A stretch of 58,700 nt of DNA, taken from assembly GCA_944342025.1 (NCBI GenBank), contig CALVMD010000011.1:1-58700 (forward strand), given 5' to 3'. The DNA comes from an uncultured Clostridia bacterium. Lineage in GTDB: Bacteria > Bacillota > Clostridia > Christensenellales > Borkfalkiaceae. Shown here piece by piece: positions 25,089 through 57,592 of this stretch. Numbering within the stretch: position 1 is the stretch's first letter; each line of letters opens with the position of its first letter. Under the pieces are notes generated by a model that saw only the letters and a program-made list of their open reading frames with translations, had not been told where the DNA came from and did no database searches. The translations under genes and the position numbers were made by a program.

Positions 25089-25100
25089 AAATAAAATCAA

Positions 25101-25376
25101 ACGCAGAGACGGGGAGGAGTACCCGCACGGTTCGCGGCAGAGAGAGGGCGGCAGGTGAAAGCCCTTGCGGAAATGCGGCGGAAGGTAGCCCCCGAGCGGC
25201 GGCCCGAAAGGAAACGAGTAGGCGCCGACGGTTTTTTCCCACCGTTACGAGGGAGCCGGTATCGGCGCGGCTTTTTAGCGCCTGCATCGGGTCGAGTGCG
25301 GAAAATTTTTTCCGAATTCAGGTGGTAACGCGGTATTGTATCGCCCTGAACGGCTTTTGCCGTTCGGGGCGTTTTG
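25101..25376 (+). promoter_or_regulatory. T-box leader, probably valine type, controlling ilvB-ilvN
   Basis: Landmarks: a GGGGAGGAGTA 5' strand near 25111, the GGCAGAGAGAGGGCGGCAGG region of distal stem I, the T-box motif GGTGGTAACGCGG (25321-25333) and a terminator of CGCCCTGAACGG with CCGTTCGGGGCG (25342-25353, 25360-25371) plus TTTT. The strand that closes the specifier loop is CCCCCG, pairing with CGGGG at 25110-25114; the triplet before the conserved purine is then GTA (25185-25187), a valine codon. This is the same geometry that gives CTC in the leuA leader. Valine sensing fits acetolactate synthase. The T-box call is firm, the codon less so. Confidence 0.9.
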
Positions 25377-31437: not shown

Positions 31438-31472
31438 AAACCGCCCTCTCCGAAAAACGGAGAGGGCGGTTT
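31438..31472. terminator. Terminator hairpin, copy 1 of a repeated sequence
   Basis: AAACCGCCCTCTCCG and CGGAGAGGGCGGTTT form a perfect 15-bp stem with loop AAAAA between the convergent M32 and exported-protein genes. Leftward it is followed by further T residues. The same hairpin, with one loop base changed, recurs at 33562-33596. Confidence 0.9.
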
Positions 31473-33561: not shown

Positions 33562-33596
33562 AAACCGCCCTCTCCGAAGAACGGAGAGGGCGGTTT
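33562..33596 (-). terminator. Terminator of mgtE, copy 2 of the repeated hairpin
   Basis: The same 15-bp stem as at 31438-31472 with loop AAGAA. On the minus strand it ends in TTTTTCGC. It lies 14 bases past the mgtE stop. Confidence 0.9.
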
Positions 33597-47337: not shown

Positions 47338-48228
47338 ATGTACAAATTTACTTTATCGACCGATTCCACTTGCGATCTTTACAGCGATTTTATCCGTGAG
47401 AACGACATCAAGTTCGTCAGTCTTACTTATACGATGGAAAAAGGCGGCAAGATGACGGACGGGCTTGACGCATTCACAGATTATTCGCAGTACGTCGATT
47501 TTTATAAGCAGCTCAGAGACGGCGGCTTTTCGCGCACATCGATGCTCAATTACGAGAGCCATCTCTCTCATTTCCGCAAACTTGCGGAGGAGGGCGCCAA
47601 AGACGTCGTACATTTTACCATTTCCAGCGGGCTTTCGCCCACGGTTACCGTTGCGGAGAAAGCGGCTGCGGACGTGAAAAAGGACTTTCCCGATTTCAAT
47701 GTGTACGCCGTAGACTCTCTGTCTGCGACTATCGGTCAGGGTGCCGAAGTCAAAGCCGCGCTTCGCCTGCGCAACGAAGGGAAAACGGCAAAAGAAGCGT
47801 ACGATTACGTTGTGGAGATGCAAAAACATCTGCAATACGCGATCTTTGCCAACGATCTCTATTATCTGAAAAGAGGCGGCAGGGTCTCGGCGGTTGCCGC
47901 GATCGCGGGTTCCGTCCTGCAGGTCAAACCTGTGCTTTCTTTCACGAAAGACGGGAAACTTGTCGTCGTGGATAAGGTCAGGGGCATGAAAAAGGCTTTT
48001 GCGTGGGCGCTCGAAAAGCAGGAGAAATTTCCGCCCGTCGAAGAAAACCGTCTGATCTGGGTCGTTCATACCGACGCGGAGGAGCAGGCGAACGAGCTTG
48101 CCGCCATGGTAGAGGCGAAATGGGGATTCAAACCCGATGTGAGCATCATGGGACCTGTCATCGGTTCGCACGTCGGACCGGGCGCCGTGGCCGTGCTTTG
48201 GACGAGCAAAGAAGAGAGACAGGATTGA
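47338..48228 (+). CDS. DegV-family fatty-acid-binding protein, copy 1
   Basis: A 296-residue protein of the DegV family, which binds fatty acids and, as FakB, presents them to the FakA kinase. It has the family start (STDSTCDLYSDFIREN), the lipid-contact TSMLNYE region, SGLSPT with the phosphate-site serine, and the end motif MGPVIGSHVGPGAVAV. The HTDAEEQANELA segment is also conserved. RBS AAGGGGAC is at the ATG. A second copy follows in tandem. No fakA lies in the window. Confidence 0.93.
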   Translation: MYKFTLSTDSTCDLYSDFIRENDIKFVSLTYTMEKGGKMTDGLDAFTDYSQYVDFYKQLRDGGFSRTSMLNYESHLSHFRKLAEEGAKDVVHFTISSGLSPTVTVAEKAAADVKKDFPDFNVYAVDSLSATIGQGAEVKAALRLRNEGKTAKEAYDYVVEMQKHLQYAIFANDLYYLKRGGRVSAVAAIAGSVLQVKPVLSFTKDGKLVVVDKVRGMKKAFAWALEKQEKFPPVEENRLIWVVHTDAEEQANELAAMVEAKWGFKPDVSIMGPVIGSHVGPGAVAVLWTSKEERQD

Positions 48229-48240
48229 CCGTTTATTTTG

Positions 48241-48266
48241 CGCGCCGCGGTATGCGGCGCGTTTCA
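48241..48266 (+). terminator. Hairpin between the two degV genes
   Basis: CGCGCCGC and GCGGCGCG (48241-48248, 48254-48261) with loop GGTAT, followed by TTTCAAAT. It may be a weak terminator that lowers expression of the second copy. Confidence 0.55.
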
Positions 48267-48317
48267 AATAACAATAATAAGACGGCAGCTCTCTGTTCGG
48301 GGGCGAAAAAGAGGTAT

Positions 48318-49211
48318 ATGAACGAAAAATTTATAATATCCAGCGATTCCACCTGCGATCTTTACAGCGATTACGTGGCGGAGCACGACATCCGTATCGT
48401 GCCGCTCACCTATACGATGGAAAAGGGCGGCGCCCTCATCGAGGCAAAGGACGCGTTTACCGAGTATTCGCAGTACGTCGATTTTTATAAGCAGCTCAGA
48501 GACGGCGGTTTTTCGCGCACATCTATGCTCAATTACGATCATCACTTTCTGCATTTCCGCAAGCTGGCGGAGGAAGGCGCGGAAAATGTCCTGCATTTCA
48601 GTCTGTCGAGCGGGCTTTCGACGACGGCTCAGGCGGCAAAAGACGCGGCAGACGACGTGATGAAGGAATACCCTTCCTGCCGGATCTTTGCGGTCGATTC
48701 GTATGCTGCGACGATCGGACAGGGTGCTCTCGTCAAAGAGGCGGTGCGCCTTCGCGCGGAAGGCAAGAGCGCGGAAGAGGCGTACGCCGCGGTCAAGGAC
48801 ATGCCTTTTCATATTCAGTACGTCATCATCGCGAACGATCTTTACTATCTGAAAAAGGGCGGCAGGGTTTCCGCGTTTGCAGCGGCGGCCGGGACGGTGC
48901 TCAAAATCAAACCCGTGCTTTCCTTTACGAACGAAGGAAAACTGACGGTCGTCGAAAAGTGCAAGGGGATGAAAAAGGCGTTTTCGTACGCACTCGAAAA
49001 GATGAAAAGGTTCCCGCCCGTTGAAGAGGACAGGCTCATCTGGATCGTGCATACCGACGCGGAGGAAGAGGCGAACGAACTTGCGGATATGGTGGAAGAG
49101 AAGTGGGGATACCGCCCCGATGTGACCATCATGGGACCCGTAATCGGTTCGCACGTAGGTCCCGGGTCCGTCTCCATGATCTGGCGCAGTAAGGAACGGC
49201 GTCAGGACTGA
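48318..49211 (+). CDS. DegV-family fatty-acid-binding protein, copy 2
   Basis: A 297-residue paralog of the preceding gene, about two-thirds identical by eye, with the same SSDSTCDLYSDYVAEHD start, SGLSTT and MGPVIGSHVGPGSVSM end. The ATG at 48318 follows AAAAGAGGTAT. Differences cluster in lipid-contact positions, so the two may prefer different fatty acids, as FakB1 and FakB2 do. A 44-base block is identical between the copies. Confidence 0.93.
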   Translation: MNEKFIISSDSTCDLYSDYVAEHDIRIVPLTYTMEKGGALIEAKDAFTEYSQYVDFYKQLRDGGFSRTSMLNYDHHFLHFRKLAEEGAENVLHFSLSSGLSTTAQAAKDAADDVMKEYPSCRIFAVDSYAATIGQGALVKEAVRLRAEGKSAEEAYAAVKDMPFHIQYVIIANDLYYLKKGGRVSAFAAAAGTVLKIKPVLSFTNEGKLTVVEKCKGMKKAFSYALEKMKRFPPVEEDRLIWIVHTDAEEEANELADMVEEKWGYRPDVTIMGPVIGSHVGPGSVSMIWRSKERRQD

Positions 49212-54863: not shown

Positions 54864-55775
54864 ATGCGATGTTTGTTTATGTATAATCCTGTCAGCGGCA
54901 GAGGGAGAATAGCGAAAAAAGCAGATTATATCGTGCGCAAGTTGCAGGAGAAGTATGATACGGTCGATGTATATGCCACCAAAGGGGTCGGCGATATGGA
55001 ACGCGCCGCGCATGAGGCGGCGCATAAATATGATGCGATCATTTTTTCCGGCGGCGACGGCTCGTTCAATGAGGTCGTGCAGGGGATCGGCGCGCTCGAA
55101 TGTCCTCCGGAACTCGGCTATATACCGAGCGGAACGGTAAACGACATTGCGCACTCTCTCGGGATCCCGAAAGGGTTGAAAAAAGCGGTGAAAACCGTAC
55201 TTACGGGGGATAATGTGCTCGTTGATTGTATGAAAGTCAACGAACGCTATGCGATGTACGTCGTTGCCGCAGGCGCTTTCACAAGTGCGTCGTACATGAC
55301 GCCGCAGGCCCAAAAGAAGCGGATCGGGCGTATTGCCTATGGCTTAGAAGGGATCAAAAAAAACCTTCGTTTTGAAGTGTTTGACGTCACTGTGCGAAGC
55401 GGTGATTACGAAGTCAAAACGCCGAGCGTTCTGGTCGTTTTCATGAACGGAAAGTGTGTGGCGGGCATAAAATTGAATAAACACGGAAGCATGGCGGACG
55501 GAAAAATAGAATTTGCCGCGATACGGCAAAAAGAAAATCCGAATTTGTTCCGTCGTATCCGCGCTTTTTTTGCGCTCGTGCATTTGTTTATTTTCGGCTA
55601 TCGAGTGAAAGATAAATTGATCACTAAATTTTCCGCGTCGGAATTCGAAATCGAAACGGACGATAACGTCGTATGGAACTTTGACGGTGAGAAAGGGATC
55701 AGCGGGAAAGTCAGAGTTTGCGTGTTGCCGAAAAAAATCAACATGATTGTGCCGAAAGGGCGTAAAAACATTTGA
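54864..55775 (+). CDS. Diacylglycerol kinase family lipid kinase
   Basis: A 303-residue kinase of the DagK/YegS family. The nucleotide loop SGGDGSFNEV is at residues 62-71, the PSGTVNDIA motif near 92, and the second domain is the expected beta-sandwich. In Bacillota such enzymes return diacylglycerol from lipoteichoic acid synthesis to phosphatidic acid; others act on sphingosine or undecaprenol-like lipids. The ATG follows GGAAC at a longish distance. Substrate inferred from family. Confidence 0.93.
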   Translation: MRCLFMYNPVSGRGRIAKKADYIVRKLQEKYDTVDVYATKGVGDMERAAHEAAHKYDAIIFSGGDGSFNEVVQGIGALECPPELGYIPSGTVNDIAHSLGIPKGLKKAVKTVLTGDNVLVDCMKVNERYAMYVVAAGAFTSASYMTPQAQKKRIGRIAYGLEGIKKNLRFEVFDVTVRSGDYEVKTPSVLVVFMNGKCVAGIKLNKHGSMADGKIEFAAIRQKENPNLFRRIRAFFALVHLFIFGYRVKDKLITKFSASEFEIETDDNVVWNFDGEKGISGKVRVCVLPKKINMIVPKGRKNI

Positions 55776-55799
55776 TTTTTTTTGAGAATATGCTATAAT
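55772..55799 (+). promoter_or_regulatory. Promoter reading into the tRNA-linked repeat region
   Basis: TTGATT (55772-55777), 16 bases, TATAAT (55794-55799). It overlaps the stop codon of the lipid kinase gene, and nothing protein-coding follows, so it should drive an RNA that runs into the repeat array. Confidence 0.65.
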
Positions 55800-55805
55800 A
55801 ATATA

Positions 55806-55904
55806 GCTTTGTTCGTGCAGAGCGGAATAGTGCGGACGTGATTTGCTCTTTACTTGCCGATGTGATCGGGTAAGCCGTGCGGATCGATCGCTGCGCAGTT
55901 CAGC
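55806..55904 (+). other. Non-coding stretch, possible structured RNA leader
   Basis: No frame here looks coding. Several short helices can form: CTTGCC with GGGTAAG around GATGTGATC (55853-55874), and GCTG with CAGC (55891-55904). The direct repeat GTGCGGA occurs twice. It matches no RNA family I can name. Confidence 0.4.
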
Positions 55905-56259
55905 CGCTCCGGCTGTATTCGTTGCGAGAAATGAGCCTGATAAATTAAATAACTGATGTGCTACTGTGGCTCAGTCGCTCCGGCTGTATTCGTTGCGAGA
56001 AATGAGCCTGATAAATTAAATAACTGATGTGCTACTGTGGCTCAGTCGCTCCGGCTGTATTCGTTGCGAGAAATGAGCCTGATAAATTAAATAGCTGATG
56101 TGCTACTGTGGCTCAGTCGCTCCAGTTGTATTCGTTGCGAGAAATGAGCCTGATAAATTAAATAGCTGATGTGCTACTGTGGCTCAGTCGCTCCAGCTGT
56201 ATTCGTTGCGAGAAATGAGCCTGATAAATTAAATAGCTGATGTGCTACTGTGGCTCAGT
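55905..56259 (+). repeat. Five exact-length 71-bp tandem repeats ending in tRNA-Thr
   Basis: Units start at 55905, 55976, 56047, 56118 and 56189, each 71 bases, differing at only a few positions (CGCTCCGG in units 1-3, CGCTCCAG in 4-5; AACTGATGT in 1-2, AGCTGATGT in 3-5). Each unit ends in GCTACTGTGGCTCAGT, the first 16 bases of the tRNA-Thr that follows; in the fifth this is the real tRNA start at 56244. The junction to the next unit makes GCTACTG TGGCT CAGTCGC TCC(A/G), a tRNA acceptor stem closed by a five-base loop. Each unit also holds TTGCGA and, 18 bases on, TAAATA, a possible promoter. Confidence 0.97.
56206..56235 (+). promoter_or_regulatory. Possible promoter of tRNA-Thr within repeat unit 5
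   Basis: TTGCGA (56206-56211), 18 bases, TAAATA (56230-56235), nine bases before the tRNA. The same elements recur in all five units. Confidence 0.5.
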
Positions 56260-56319
56260 CGGTAGAGCAGCTGATTCGTAATCAGCAGGTCGCCGGTTCA
56301 AGTCCGGCCAGTAGCTCCA
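56244..56319 (+). tRNA. tRNA-Thr(CGT)
   Basis: A 76-nt tRNA. Acceptor GCTACTG pairs with CAGTAGC, then T and an encoded CCA. D-stem GCTC/GAGC, anticodon stem GCTGA/TCAGC with loop TTCGTAA giving anticodon CGT (56277-56279), and T-arm CCGGTTCAAGTCCGG. Its 5' part is copied four times in the array upstream, and an integrase gene lies past its 3' end. Confidence 0.96.
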
Positions 56320-56322
56320 AAA

Positions 56323-56379
56323 CCCCAATATCTTGTATTATCTCAGTCGTATTTTACAAGATGTTGGGGCTTTCTTTTT
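56323..56379 (+). terminator. Terminator of tRNA-Thr
   Basis: CCCCAATATCTTGTA pairs with TACAAGATGTTGGGG (56323-56337, 56355-56369, one G-T pair) and is followed by CTTTCTTTTT. Confidence 0.9.
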
Positions 56380-56416
56380 GCGCGAAAGCGCATTTTTGCC
56401 GTTATGAAAGTGTCAA

Positions 56417-57592
56417 TTAAGTGTCAAAAGCGGCCTTTATGCGCTCCGAATTTTCCTTTACATAATCGATCTGAATGTCGGTGTAAACGTTTTGCGTCAT
56501 TTCGAGCGAAGAATGGCCGAGTAAATATTGTTTCAGCTTAGGGGAGATGCCAGCCTCTTCCAGGCGTGTCGCATAAGTGTGACGGAGGAGATGCGCAGTA
56601 ACTTCAAAGCCGAGTGATACAGAAACGCGGCGAAGAGCGGAACGAGCGCCCGAGTAGGTGTAGGGAAAAACAAGCGCTGCGTCATCAGTCCCGCGATAGA
56701 TTAGCTGTATTGCCTCATCAGGAACGGGGACAACGCGGATCCCTGCCGCACTTTTCGGCGTATCTTGGTCGATACGTTTTCCGCCGATGAACACAACGTT
56801 TTTATTTACCGATACAGTCTTTGCTTCGAAATCAATATCCGCATATGTGAGCGCCAGCGCTTCGCCGATCCGCAGCCCTGTTTCGAGAAGAAAGACAAAC
56901 AGCGGGCGCGTGGCGAGCGGTTCGATCGCTTTCAGGAATTTGCGCTGCTCTTCTTTTGTCAGTGCTTTGCGATGGACGCTTTTATGCTTTTTTAATTCGA
57001 GAGCTTCGCAAGGATTTCGTTTGATCAGGCCCCGAAGGTATGCTTTTTTGAAAGCCTGCGCTAAAAAGCTGCGGCAAAGATCGCGAGTGCGTTGTGCTTC
57101 GATAGAGAGTAAAAAGGCCTGTATATCCTCTGTGTTTACAGCAGCGAGGTTTTTATTTCCCAAGGCAGCGAAAGCAGGTTTTAAGGCGCCGCGCACTTGT
57201 CGCATGCTTGTCGGTTTCAGATTCGGTGCTTTGTATAATTCGATCCATTTTTCTAGCCATTCCGTGACTGTCGGGATGGCTTTTTTGCTTTCGGCACGGT
57301 TTTGCTTTTTCTTCGGCTCTCCGTTTTGCAAAAGTACTTCGATTTTGATTTTTACTTCCTGTTCAGATTTTCCGTAAACATAGTGTTTTTTTCCGTCACG
57401 GGTGTAATAGCCCTGAAAGCGCCCGTCTGCGCGGGGCTTGGTGCTAACGGAAATTCCGCTTAGATCAATCAACATTTGTCGCTCCTTTTCGGCAGCGGCA
57501 TTTTTCTTTTCCTCGTATTTTCTTTTTTCCGCTTCGTTCACCACCTCCAACAGCATCTGCGCATAGATTTTTATTTTTTCGAGATCGTCCAT
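56417..57592 (-). CDS. int: Tyrosine-type site-specific integrase
   Basis: A 391-residue phage-type recombinase that inserts and excises the element. An N-terminal coiled-coil-like stretch and an AP2-like arm-binding domain (about 45-90, RADGRFQGYYTRDGKKHYVYG) precede the SAM-like core-binding domain (about 105-195) and the catalytic domain. Catalytic residues are an Arg near 240 (ETGLRIGEAL), Lys in TPKSAAGIR, His334 and Arg337 (HLLRH), His360 (LLGHSS) and the nucleophile Tyr370 (NVYTDIQ). Its stop lies about 100 bases from the tRNA 3' end. Confidence 0.96.
   Translation of the reverse strand: MDDLEKIKIYAQMLLEVVNEAEKRKYEEKKNAAAEKERQMLIDLSGISVSTKPRADGRFQGYYTRDGKKHYVYGKSEQEVKIKIEVLLQNGEPKKKQNRAESKKAIPTVTEWLEKWIELYKAPNLKPTSMRQVRGALKPAFAALGNKNLAAVNTEDIQAFLLSIEAQRTRDLCRSFLAQAFKKAYLRGLIKRNPCEALELKKHKSVHRKALTKEEQRKFLKAIEPLATRPLFVFLLETGLRIGEALALTYADIDFEAKTVSVNKNVVFIGGKRIDQDTPKSAAGIRVVPVPDEAIQLIYRGTDDAALVFPYTYSGARSALRRVSVSLGFEVTAHLLRHTYATRLEEAGISPKLKQYLLGHSSLEMTQNVYTDIQIDYVKENSERIKAAFDT

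Follow-up and report, generated by a model that had tools for sequence, protein, structure and literature searches.

What are the 71-bp repeats that run into a tRNA-Thr(CGT) gene in a relative of Candidatus Borkfalkia, and what keeps them there? The repeats lie in the window, the 58,700-nucleotide stretch of DNA analyzed here. The host genome (G000; 1.57 Mb in 25 contigs, 78% complete) belongs to the genus of Candidatus Borkfalkia, as do G027, G001, and G030.

The array upstream of tRNA-Thr(CGT)

The array occupies positions 55900-56261 with a period of 71 bp, 5.1 copies, 98% matches, and no indels, and it scores 682 (TRF) compared with 167 for the second-best array in the window. Its units are in register with tRNA-Thr(CGT) (56244-56319, forward strand), an intact gene with an encoded CCA that scores 73.4 bits with the Rfam tRNA model. 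Positions 1-18 of the tRNA recur exactly in four units with a period of 71, and the spacers of these units are nearly identical to each other. Unit -4 (55960-56030) consists of tRNA positions 1-18, CTCC, the 5' strand of the anticodon arm with an inserted T, and a spacer. It is followed by unit -3 (56031-56101), unit -2 (56102-56172), and unit -1 (56173-56243), which abuts the tRNA directly; the latter two are of the CTCCA type, and all units are on the forward strand.

A preliminary description of this DNA had reported five 71-bp units in register with the tRNA. The tandem array is real, but the most upstream copy (55901-55959, forward strand) is degenerate, begins CAGCCGCTCCGGCTG, and lacks the acceptor part. 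The four 23-mers of the same description, GCTACTGTGGCTCAGTCGCTCC(A/G) at 55960-55982, 56031-56053, 56102-56124, and 56173-56195, are all located correctly, and the sequence TTGCGA...TAAATA that it assigned to each unit does occur five times. The array is far beyond chance: other species of the genus have related units at the corresponding position.

A terminator-like hairpin lies 3' of the tRNA (56323-56379, forward strand; z -5.5) and has a 15-pair stem followed by a T-rich tail. This hairpin is absent from the list of the scan that found the promoter described below, whose loop limit it exceeds. A tyrosine integrase gene (56417-57592, reverse strand; PF00589, E = 1.1e-22) neighbors the tRNA and lies outside the array.

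Other features of the window include two T-box leaders above the gathering score (2590-2841 and 25097-25351) and direct repeats spaced 983 bp apart and 71-93% alike (47344-49005), which are perhaps tandem paralogous genes. Two near-identical self-complementary sequences of 35 bp, 2.1 kb apart (31438-31472 and 33562-33596), may be terminators.

Composition of the unit

A unit is best understood as the tRNA 5' half (positions 1-36) in decayed form, ending in the anticodon loop. After the first 18 tRNA bases, the typical unit continues as CTCC(A/G)GCTGATTCGT(T/C)GCG. The 5' strand of the anticodon arm, tRNA positions 25-36, reads CAGCTGATTCGT; it comes after CTCC(A/G) in units and is exact in 19 of 48 of them. 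In the window, these positions correspond to the latter half of the unit core, CAGCTG(T)ATTCGT, which has one extra T inside the match (GCTG-T-ATTCG), and it was because of this inserted T that the match was overlooked. The anticodon-arm stretch after CTCC comprises 12 aligned columns that are on average 97% conserved among 23 genomes.

In shuffle tests, the match to tRNA positions 25-36 has P = 0.0145 for the window unit adjoining the tRNA and is not significant (P = 0.13) for the most distal full unit of the window. The units of five relatives give P values of 0.0035 (G029), 0.0015 (G016), 0.003 (G036), 0.0245 (G028), and under 1 in 2000 (G015). The first copy is degenerate in its acceptor part in several genomes. 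When eight degenerate first copies are aligned with the tRNA, those of G009, G015, and G026 match through the D arm and the anticodon arm beyond all 2000 shuffles, and the match fails P 0.05 in the other five (G000, G028, G021, G036, and G006). The preliminary description had derived the unit from a joining of the tRNA 5' end to the 3' end, but the sequence after CTCC is the anticodon-arm 5' strand, so that a unit is more readily taken for a tRNA 5' half than for a fusion of the two ends. A remnant of the T arm was considered and rejected, as among 23 genomes only G015 reaches P = 0.006 (combined chi2 33.5, 46 df).

Distribution of units and of other tRNA end copies

The preliminary description had proposed that related genomes be searched for repeats upstream of tRNA-Thr(CGT), and such a search finds that the array is not confined to the window. 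The tRNA and its upstream flank could be matched in 36 of 40 genomes of the genus, and the tRNA is on the contig in 35. Units lie upstream of it in 24 of these 35 genomes, the host genome included, when a unit is called at up to five mismatches to the first 18 nt; G012 and G032, the latter with a strongly degenerate unit, are counted only at this looser limit. The remaining 11 genomes carry no unit. G018, which is additional to the 24, has an array on a contig that stops short of the tRNA. Unit lengths are 64-71 bp, apart from one unit of 85 bp in G017 and the degenerate unit of G032.

The exact 27-28-nt core pattern, scanned against 84,980 species genomes, hits only contigs of this genus, 16 in number, and is so strict that it passes over other members of the genus that have arrays. 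These contigs are titled as metagenome or uncultured assemblies, so their array copy numbers may be wrong. An order-wide pattern search gave 0 of 297, with a pattern that also misses the window (owing to the inserted T) and a set that held only two members of the genus. Elsewhere in the family, the tRNA was matched in 92 genomes outside the genus, and 79 of their tRNA-Thr(CGT) loci were read, a few of them with short upstream sequence; a copy of the 5' end lies upstream in 8 of the 79, at 110-186 bp, but does not form an array with a 64-71 bp unit.

Copies of a tRNA's own end also flank other tRNA genes. They are found at 4 of 28 tRNAs in G000 (Thr(CGT), Pro(CGG), Thr(GGT), and Ser(TGA)) and at 3 of 33 in G016 (Thr(CGT), Arg(CCT), and Trp(CCA)), where the 33 tRNAs come from 30 loci of 42 tRNA matches; some of the flanks are truncated at the edge of a contig. 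tRNA-Thr(CGT) is thus not the only tRNA with tandem end-duplication. At tRNA-Arg(CCT), upstream 5' copies are present in 7 of 24 loci, a count that omits two loci where no tRNA was called and four matches to the 3' end only. Thus, of the two tRNAs compared across the genus, tRNA-Thr(CGT) has end-duplication far more often.

Promoter position and the predicted leader

The only promoter-like site that a scan finds in 55500-56800 is TTGATT-16-TATAAT with a TG extension (55772-55799, forward strand), upstream of the whole array. Since shuffles average 2.0 sites, the promoter count alone is no evidence; the site carries weight because the same type recurs upstream of tRNA-Thr(CGT) in relatives. It is present in 33 of 36 loci of the genus (35 genomes, with G022 represented twice) at -50 to -472. 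As for the three loci without it, the upstream sequence of one is only 51 bp long, and in the other two the first hexamer reads TTGCTT. With a conserved promoter upstream of all units, the array is expected, judging only from the position of this promoter, to be a transcribed 5' leader of tRNA-Thr(CGT). The earlier suggestion that each unit holds a promoter copy does not survive, as the TAAATA of the units, the would-be -10, falls in the unconserved spacer (56% conserved by column), the units have no conserved -35/-10 pair, and the scan finds only the site upstream of the array.

Concerted change and conservation of the core

At tRNA position 17, the letter in the unit equals the letter in the local tRNA in 46 of 48 units (36 C/C and 10 T/T); the two that differ are a G001 unit and a G022 unit shifted by a deletion. 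In a proS tree that joins 37 genomes of the genus with 6 outgroups (43 in all), position 17 has changed between C and T at least four times; 16 of 40 inner branches of this tree are well supported and 15 of 40 are open. This agreement suggests recombination between units and tRNA, and the two appear to be under concerted evolution. The presence or absence of units requires 10 changes on the same tree. An old array with repeated loss is likely, with gain the less likely course, because array-bearing and array-free genomes are both found on the basal branches.

Among 23 genomes, the core positions that are absent from the tRNA are 83% alike in pairwise comparison and the spacers are 43% alike, in units chosen for this comparison by their first 18 nt only. 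Since the core is far more conserved than the spacers, some constraint acts besides recombination. The comparisons indicate that recombination spreads the units and that something holds their core.

Maintenance of the array

The best account is a leader array that is maintained by recombination and has a constrained core, and we consider this account probable. Each unit would combine about 33 nt of leader with a decayed copy of tRNA positions 1-36 that has lost a little of the D arm. The array's founding copy probably arose early in the genus, although the proS tree does not settle its age. Because the 18-nt 5' end is repeated every 64-71 bp, unequal crossing-over or slippage, along with gene conversion between the units and the tRNA, could change the number of units. 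Recombination would add or remove whole units and leave one intact tRNA at the end, and gene conversion would hold the first 18 nt of the units equal to the tRNA, as the concerted change suggests. A single upstream promoter would transcribe the array together with the tRNA, and RNase P would presumably remove the array. Selection would keep a 38-nt core, whose conservation points most readily to a leader hairpin, and the copy number is probably near neutral. Several observations stand against this account. The non-tRNA core is conserved beyond what passive recombination would leave, the match to tRNA positions 25-36 is not significant in the distal unit of the window or in five of eight first copies, covariation in the drawn folds is weak, the effect of the spacers on folding is uneven, and real arrays do not clearly spare the folding of the tRNA better than shuffled ones. 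The metagenome origin of the assemblies and the open branches of the proS tree weigh against it as well.

The birth of the array might be owed to an integrase or another mobile element that displaced a tRNA 5' half cut in the anticodon loop, which was then amplified. This proposal concerns the birth only, is compatible with the account above, and is unlikely. In its favor, the similarity of the unit to the tRNA ends in the anticodon loop, and at three loci of two other genera 5' halves that start 165-186 bp upstream end in the same loop (GATTCGTAAT). The preliminary description had likewise offered an integrase scar as one explanation, but there is no excess of integrases beside arrays in the downstream DNA examined: an integrase relative lies downstream of 4 of 20 array-bearing loci and 1 of 6 array-free loci (nine loci with less than 500 bp downstream were dropped and one duplicate G022 contig was left out). 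In addition, a scan of viral contigs found no match to the core pattern.

Folding of the units and the leader

The units could alternatively be a functional leader RNA that acts in cis on the maturation of the tRNA, for example by slowing or gating RNase P in a copy-number-dependent manner. The GCUACUG of a unit can pair with the 3' acceptor strand of the tRNA and replace the tRNA's own 5' strand, and at equilibrium a unit is the predicted main partner of the 3' acceptor strand in 20 of 23 arrays (all but G002, G012, and G017). The conservation of the core beyond its tRNA-derived part also fits such a role. However, the folding was begun at the first unit, which favors this pairing, as do cheap multiloops; the energy model penalizes long multiloops little. 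The native acceptor stem has a mean probability of 0.14 in the 23 real arrays and 0.09 in arrays shuffled outside the 18-nt tRNA-like part, which was left fixed (mean rank 0.43). Since shuffled arrays give a similarly low probability, the low value is largely due to the repeated 5' end. In addition, 11 of 35 genomes carry no unit, and a leader RNA of this kind is quite unlikely. Equally doubtful is a copy-number-adjustable leader that controls the maturation of its own tRNA, in which the units would provide spare acceptor 5' strands and a constrained hairpin, recombination would set the dose, and gene conversion would keep the decoys matched. The idea that units are retained as insulators that spare the folding of the tRNA was rejected, as real arrays are not clearly better than shuffled ones.

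On average, real spacers fold with the fixed core better than shuffled spacers do, with a mean z of -1.49 for 23 tRNA-adjacent units and -1.43 for second units (n = 19), scores that cannot be combined into probabilities because the genomes are not independent. The effect is uneven: several units show none, and it is reversed in G022, G006, and G017. Two hand-drawn folds of the core are formed in 90% and 81% of cells with little covariation, the RNAalifold consensus is a third fold that differs from both, and the preferred hairpins differ between genomes. Given this disagreement, a single consensus fold was rejected.

A further alternative is that the units are pure passengers, a neutral tandem duplication under no constraint at all. 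The 10 changes of presence on the proS tree and the sporadic analogues at other tRNAs are what might be expected of passengers. This alternative is weakened by the conservation of the core across species whose spacers are 43% alike and by the retention of units in 24 of 35 genomes compared with 7 of 24 loci for the upstream copies at tRNA-Arg(CCT), and it is decidedly improbable.

Finally, it is very improbable that the units are mini-tRNAs, as first described, formed by a deletion between two CAGT copies, one in the D loop and one at the 3' end, and serving as acceptor-stem RNAs or promoters, given that the anticodon-arm match lies downstream of CTCC and the promoter lies outside the units. 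In favor of this reading, the last 11 tRNA bases, CAGTAGCTCCA, are matched at one or two mismatches in 41 of 48 units. The acceptor-stem fold that had been proposed does appear, as an acceptor-like hairpin, in the RNAalifold consensus of 33 units, but it is found in 0 of 24 minimum-energy folds, which cover tRNA-adjacent units only, and the third acceptor-stem pair forms in none of the 33 aligned units. As for the CCA noted in some units, 31 of 48 units overall have A at this position (20 of 23 tRNA-adjacent units and 11 of 25 others), and G takes its place in 14 of the 25 units away from the tRNA. The units do not form a minihelix, that is, a 7-bp acceptor stem built from the tRNA 5' and 3' strands with a discriminator and CCA.

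Relation to known systems

Repeats upstream of a stable RNA gene are familiar from multi-promoter stable RNA operons; in the genus studied here, by contrast, the conserved promoter is upstream of the array. The closest precedent is the 178-bp repeats of E. coli tyrT and tyrV, in the region of the rttR RNA, which lie within the tRNA transcript. The 19-nt 3' end of tyrV has exact copies in the MG1655 strain of E. coli at 159, 337, and 515 bases past the tRNA, a period of 178. The two systems share tandem units that bear the exact end of the adjoining tRNA. They differ in that the 3' end is repeated downstream in E. coli, whereas in the Borkfalkia array the 5' half is repeated upstream and has no known product. 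The rttR RNA is listed among REP-bearing small RNAs in one report (PMC12306157). The displaced tRNA fragments at the ends of genomic islands (Islander, PMC4383910) are likewise partial tRNA copies near an intact tRNA. There the fragment marks the far end of the island, whereas here the 5' fragments are in tandem, 64-71 bp apart, with no island between them. Among the titles and abstract openings by which a literature search was judged, no report of 5'-end tRNA repeats in a tRNA leader was recognized.

If the recombination-maintained leader is correct, most of the genomes examined from one genus provide a natural example of a tRNA gene that keeps copying its own 5' end into its leader. Such a tRNA must nonetheless fold and be processed despite the repeated 5' ends, and the array would offer a ready test of the effect of repeated 5' strands on RNase P processing. 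Concerted evolution around a tRNA gene would become measurable. The duplication of tRNA ends, known on the 3' side from E. coli tyrT, would extend to the 5' side and to several tRNAs of the family.

Other repeats near tRNA genes of the family

Several further arrangements were seen at tRNA loci of the family. At L082, L106, and L146, which are in three genomes from two other genera, about 125-150 bp separate the intact tRNA from an upstream tRNA-Thr 5' half that breaks off in the anticodon loop; short direct repeats resembling integrase arm sites lie in between. Pseudo-tRNA copies with palindromic inserts lie directly upstream of the intact tRNA at L224 (Pro CGG), L271 (Arg CCT), and L114 (Thr CGT). 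The insert is in or near the anticodon arm at L224 and in the T loop at L271 and L114, and the copies at L271 are in tandem with a period of 141.

A second type of unit, 136-194 bp long, is found downstream of tRNA-Thr at L034, L045, L054, L059, and L061 and, in other genera, at L071, L078, L104, and L131. At its end is a copied tRNA 3' part that extends further 5' (from AGGTC onward). The units of L071, L078, L104, and L131 also contain GACCTGCTGATTA, the reverse complement of tRNA positions 36-48.

Many different tRNAs (L214, L245, L041, L272, and others) have a palindromic element, CGTGACGCGATYG...CRATCGCTRTTCCGTCGC...GCTCCTTAC, on their 3' side. A second tRNA 3' end is joined to this element at the T loop, where the junction comes after GTTC. 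The element and this second 3' end often form tandem units with a terminator in each. The exact 16-mer of the element is present in 22 of 101 genomes of the family. Of 37 listed positions, some of which are in overlapping loci, 23 are less than 700 bp from a called tRNA. Several others adjoin a tRNA 3' end at the edge of a contig; those at L281, L282, L293, L296, and L299 do not.
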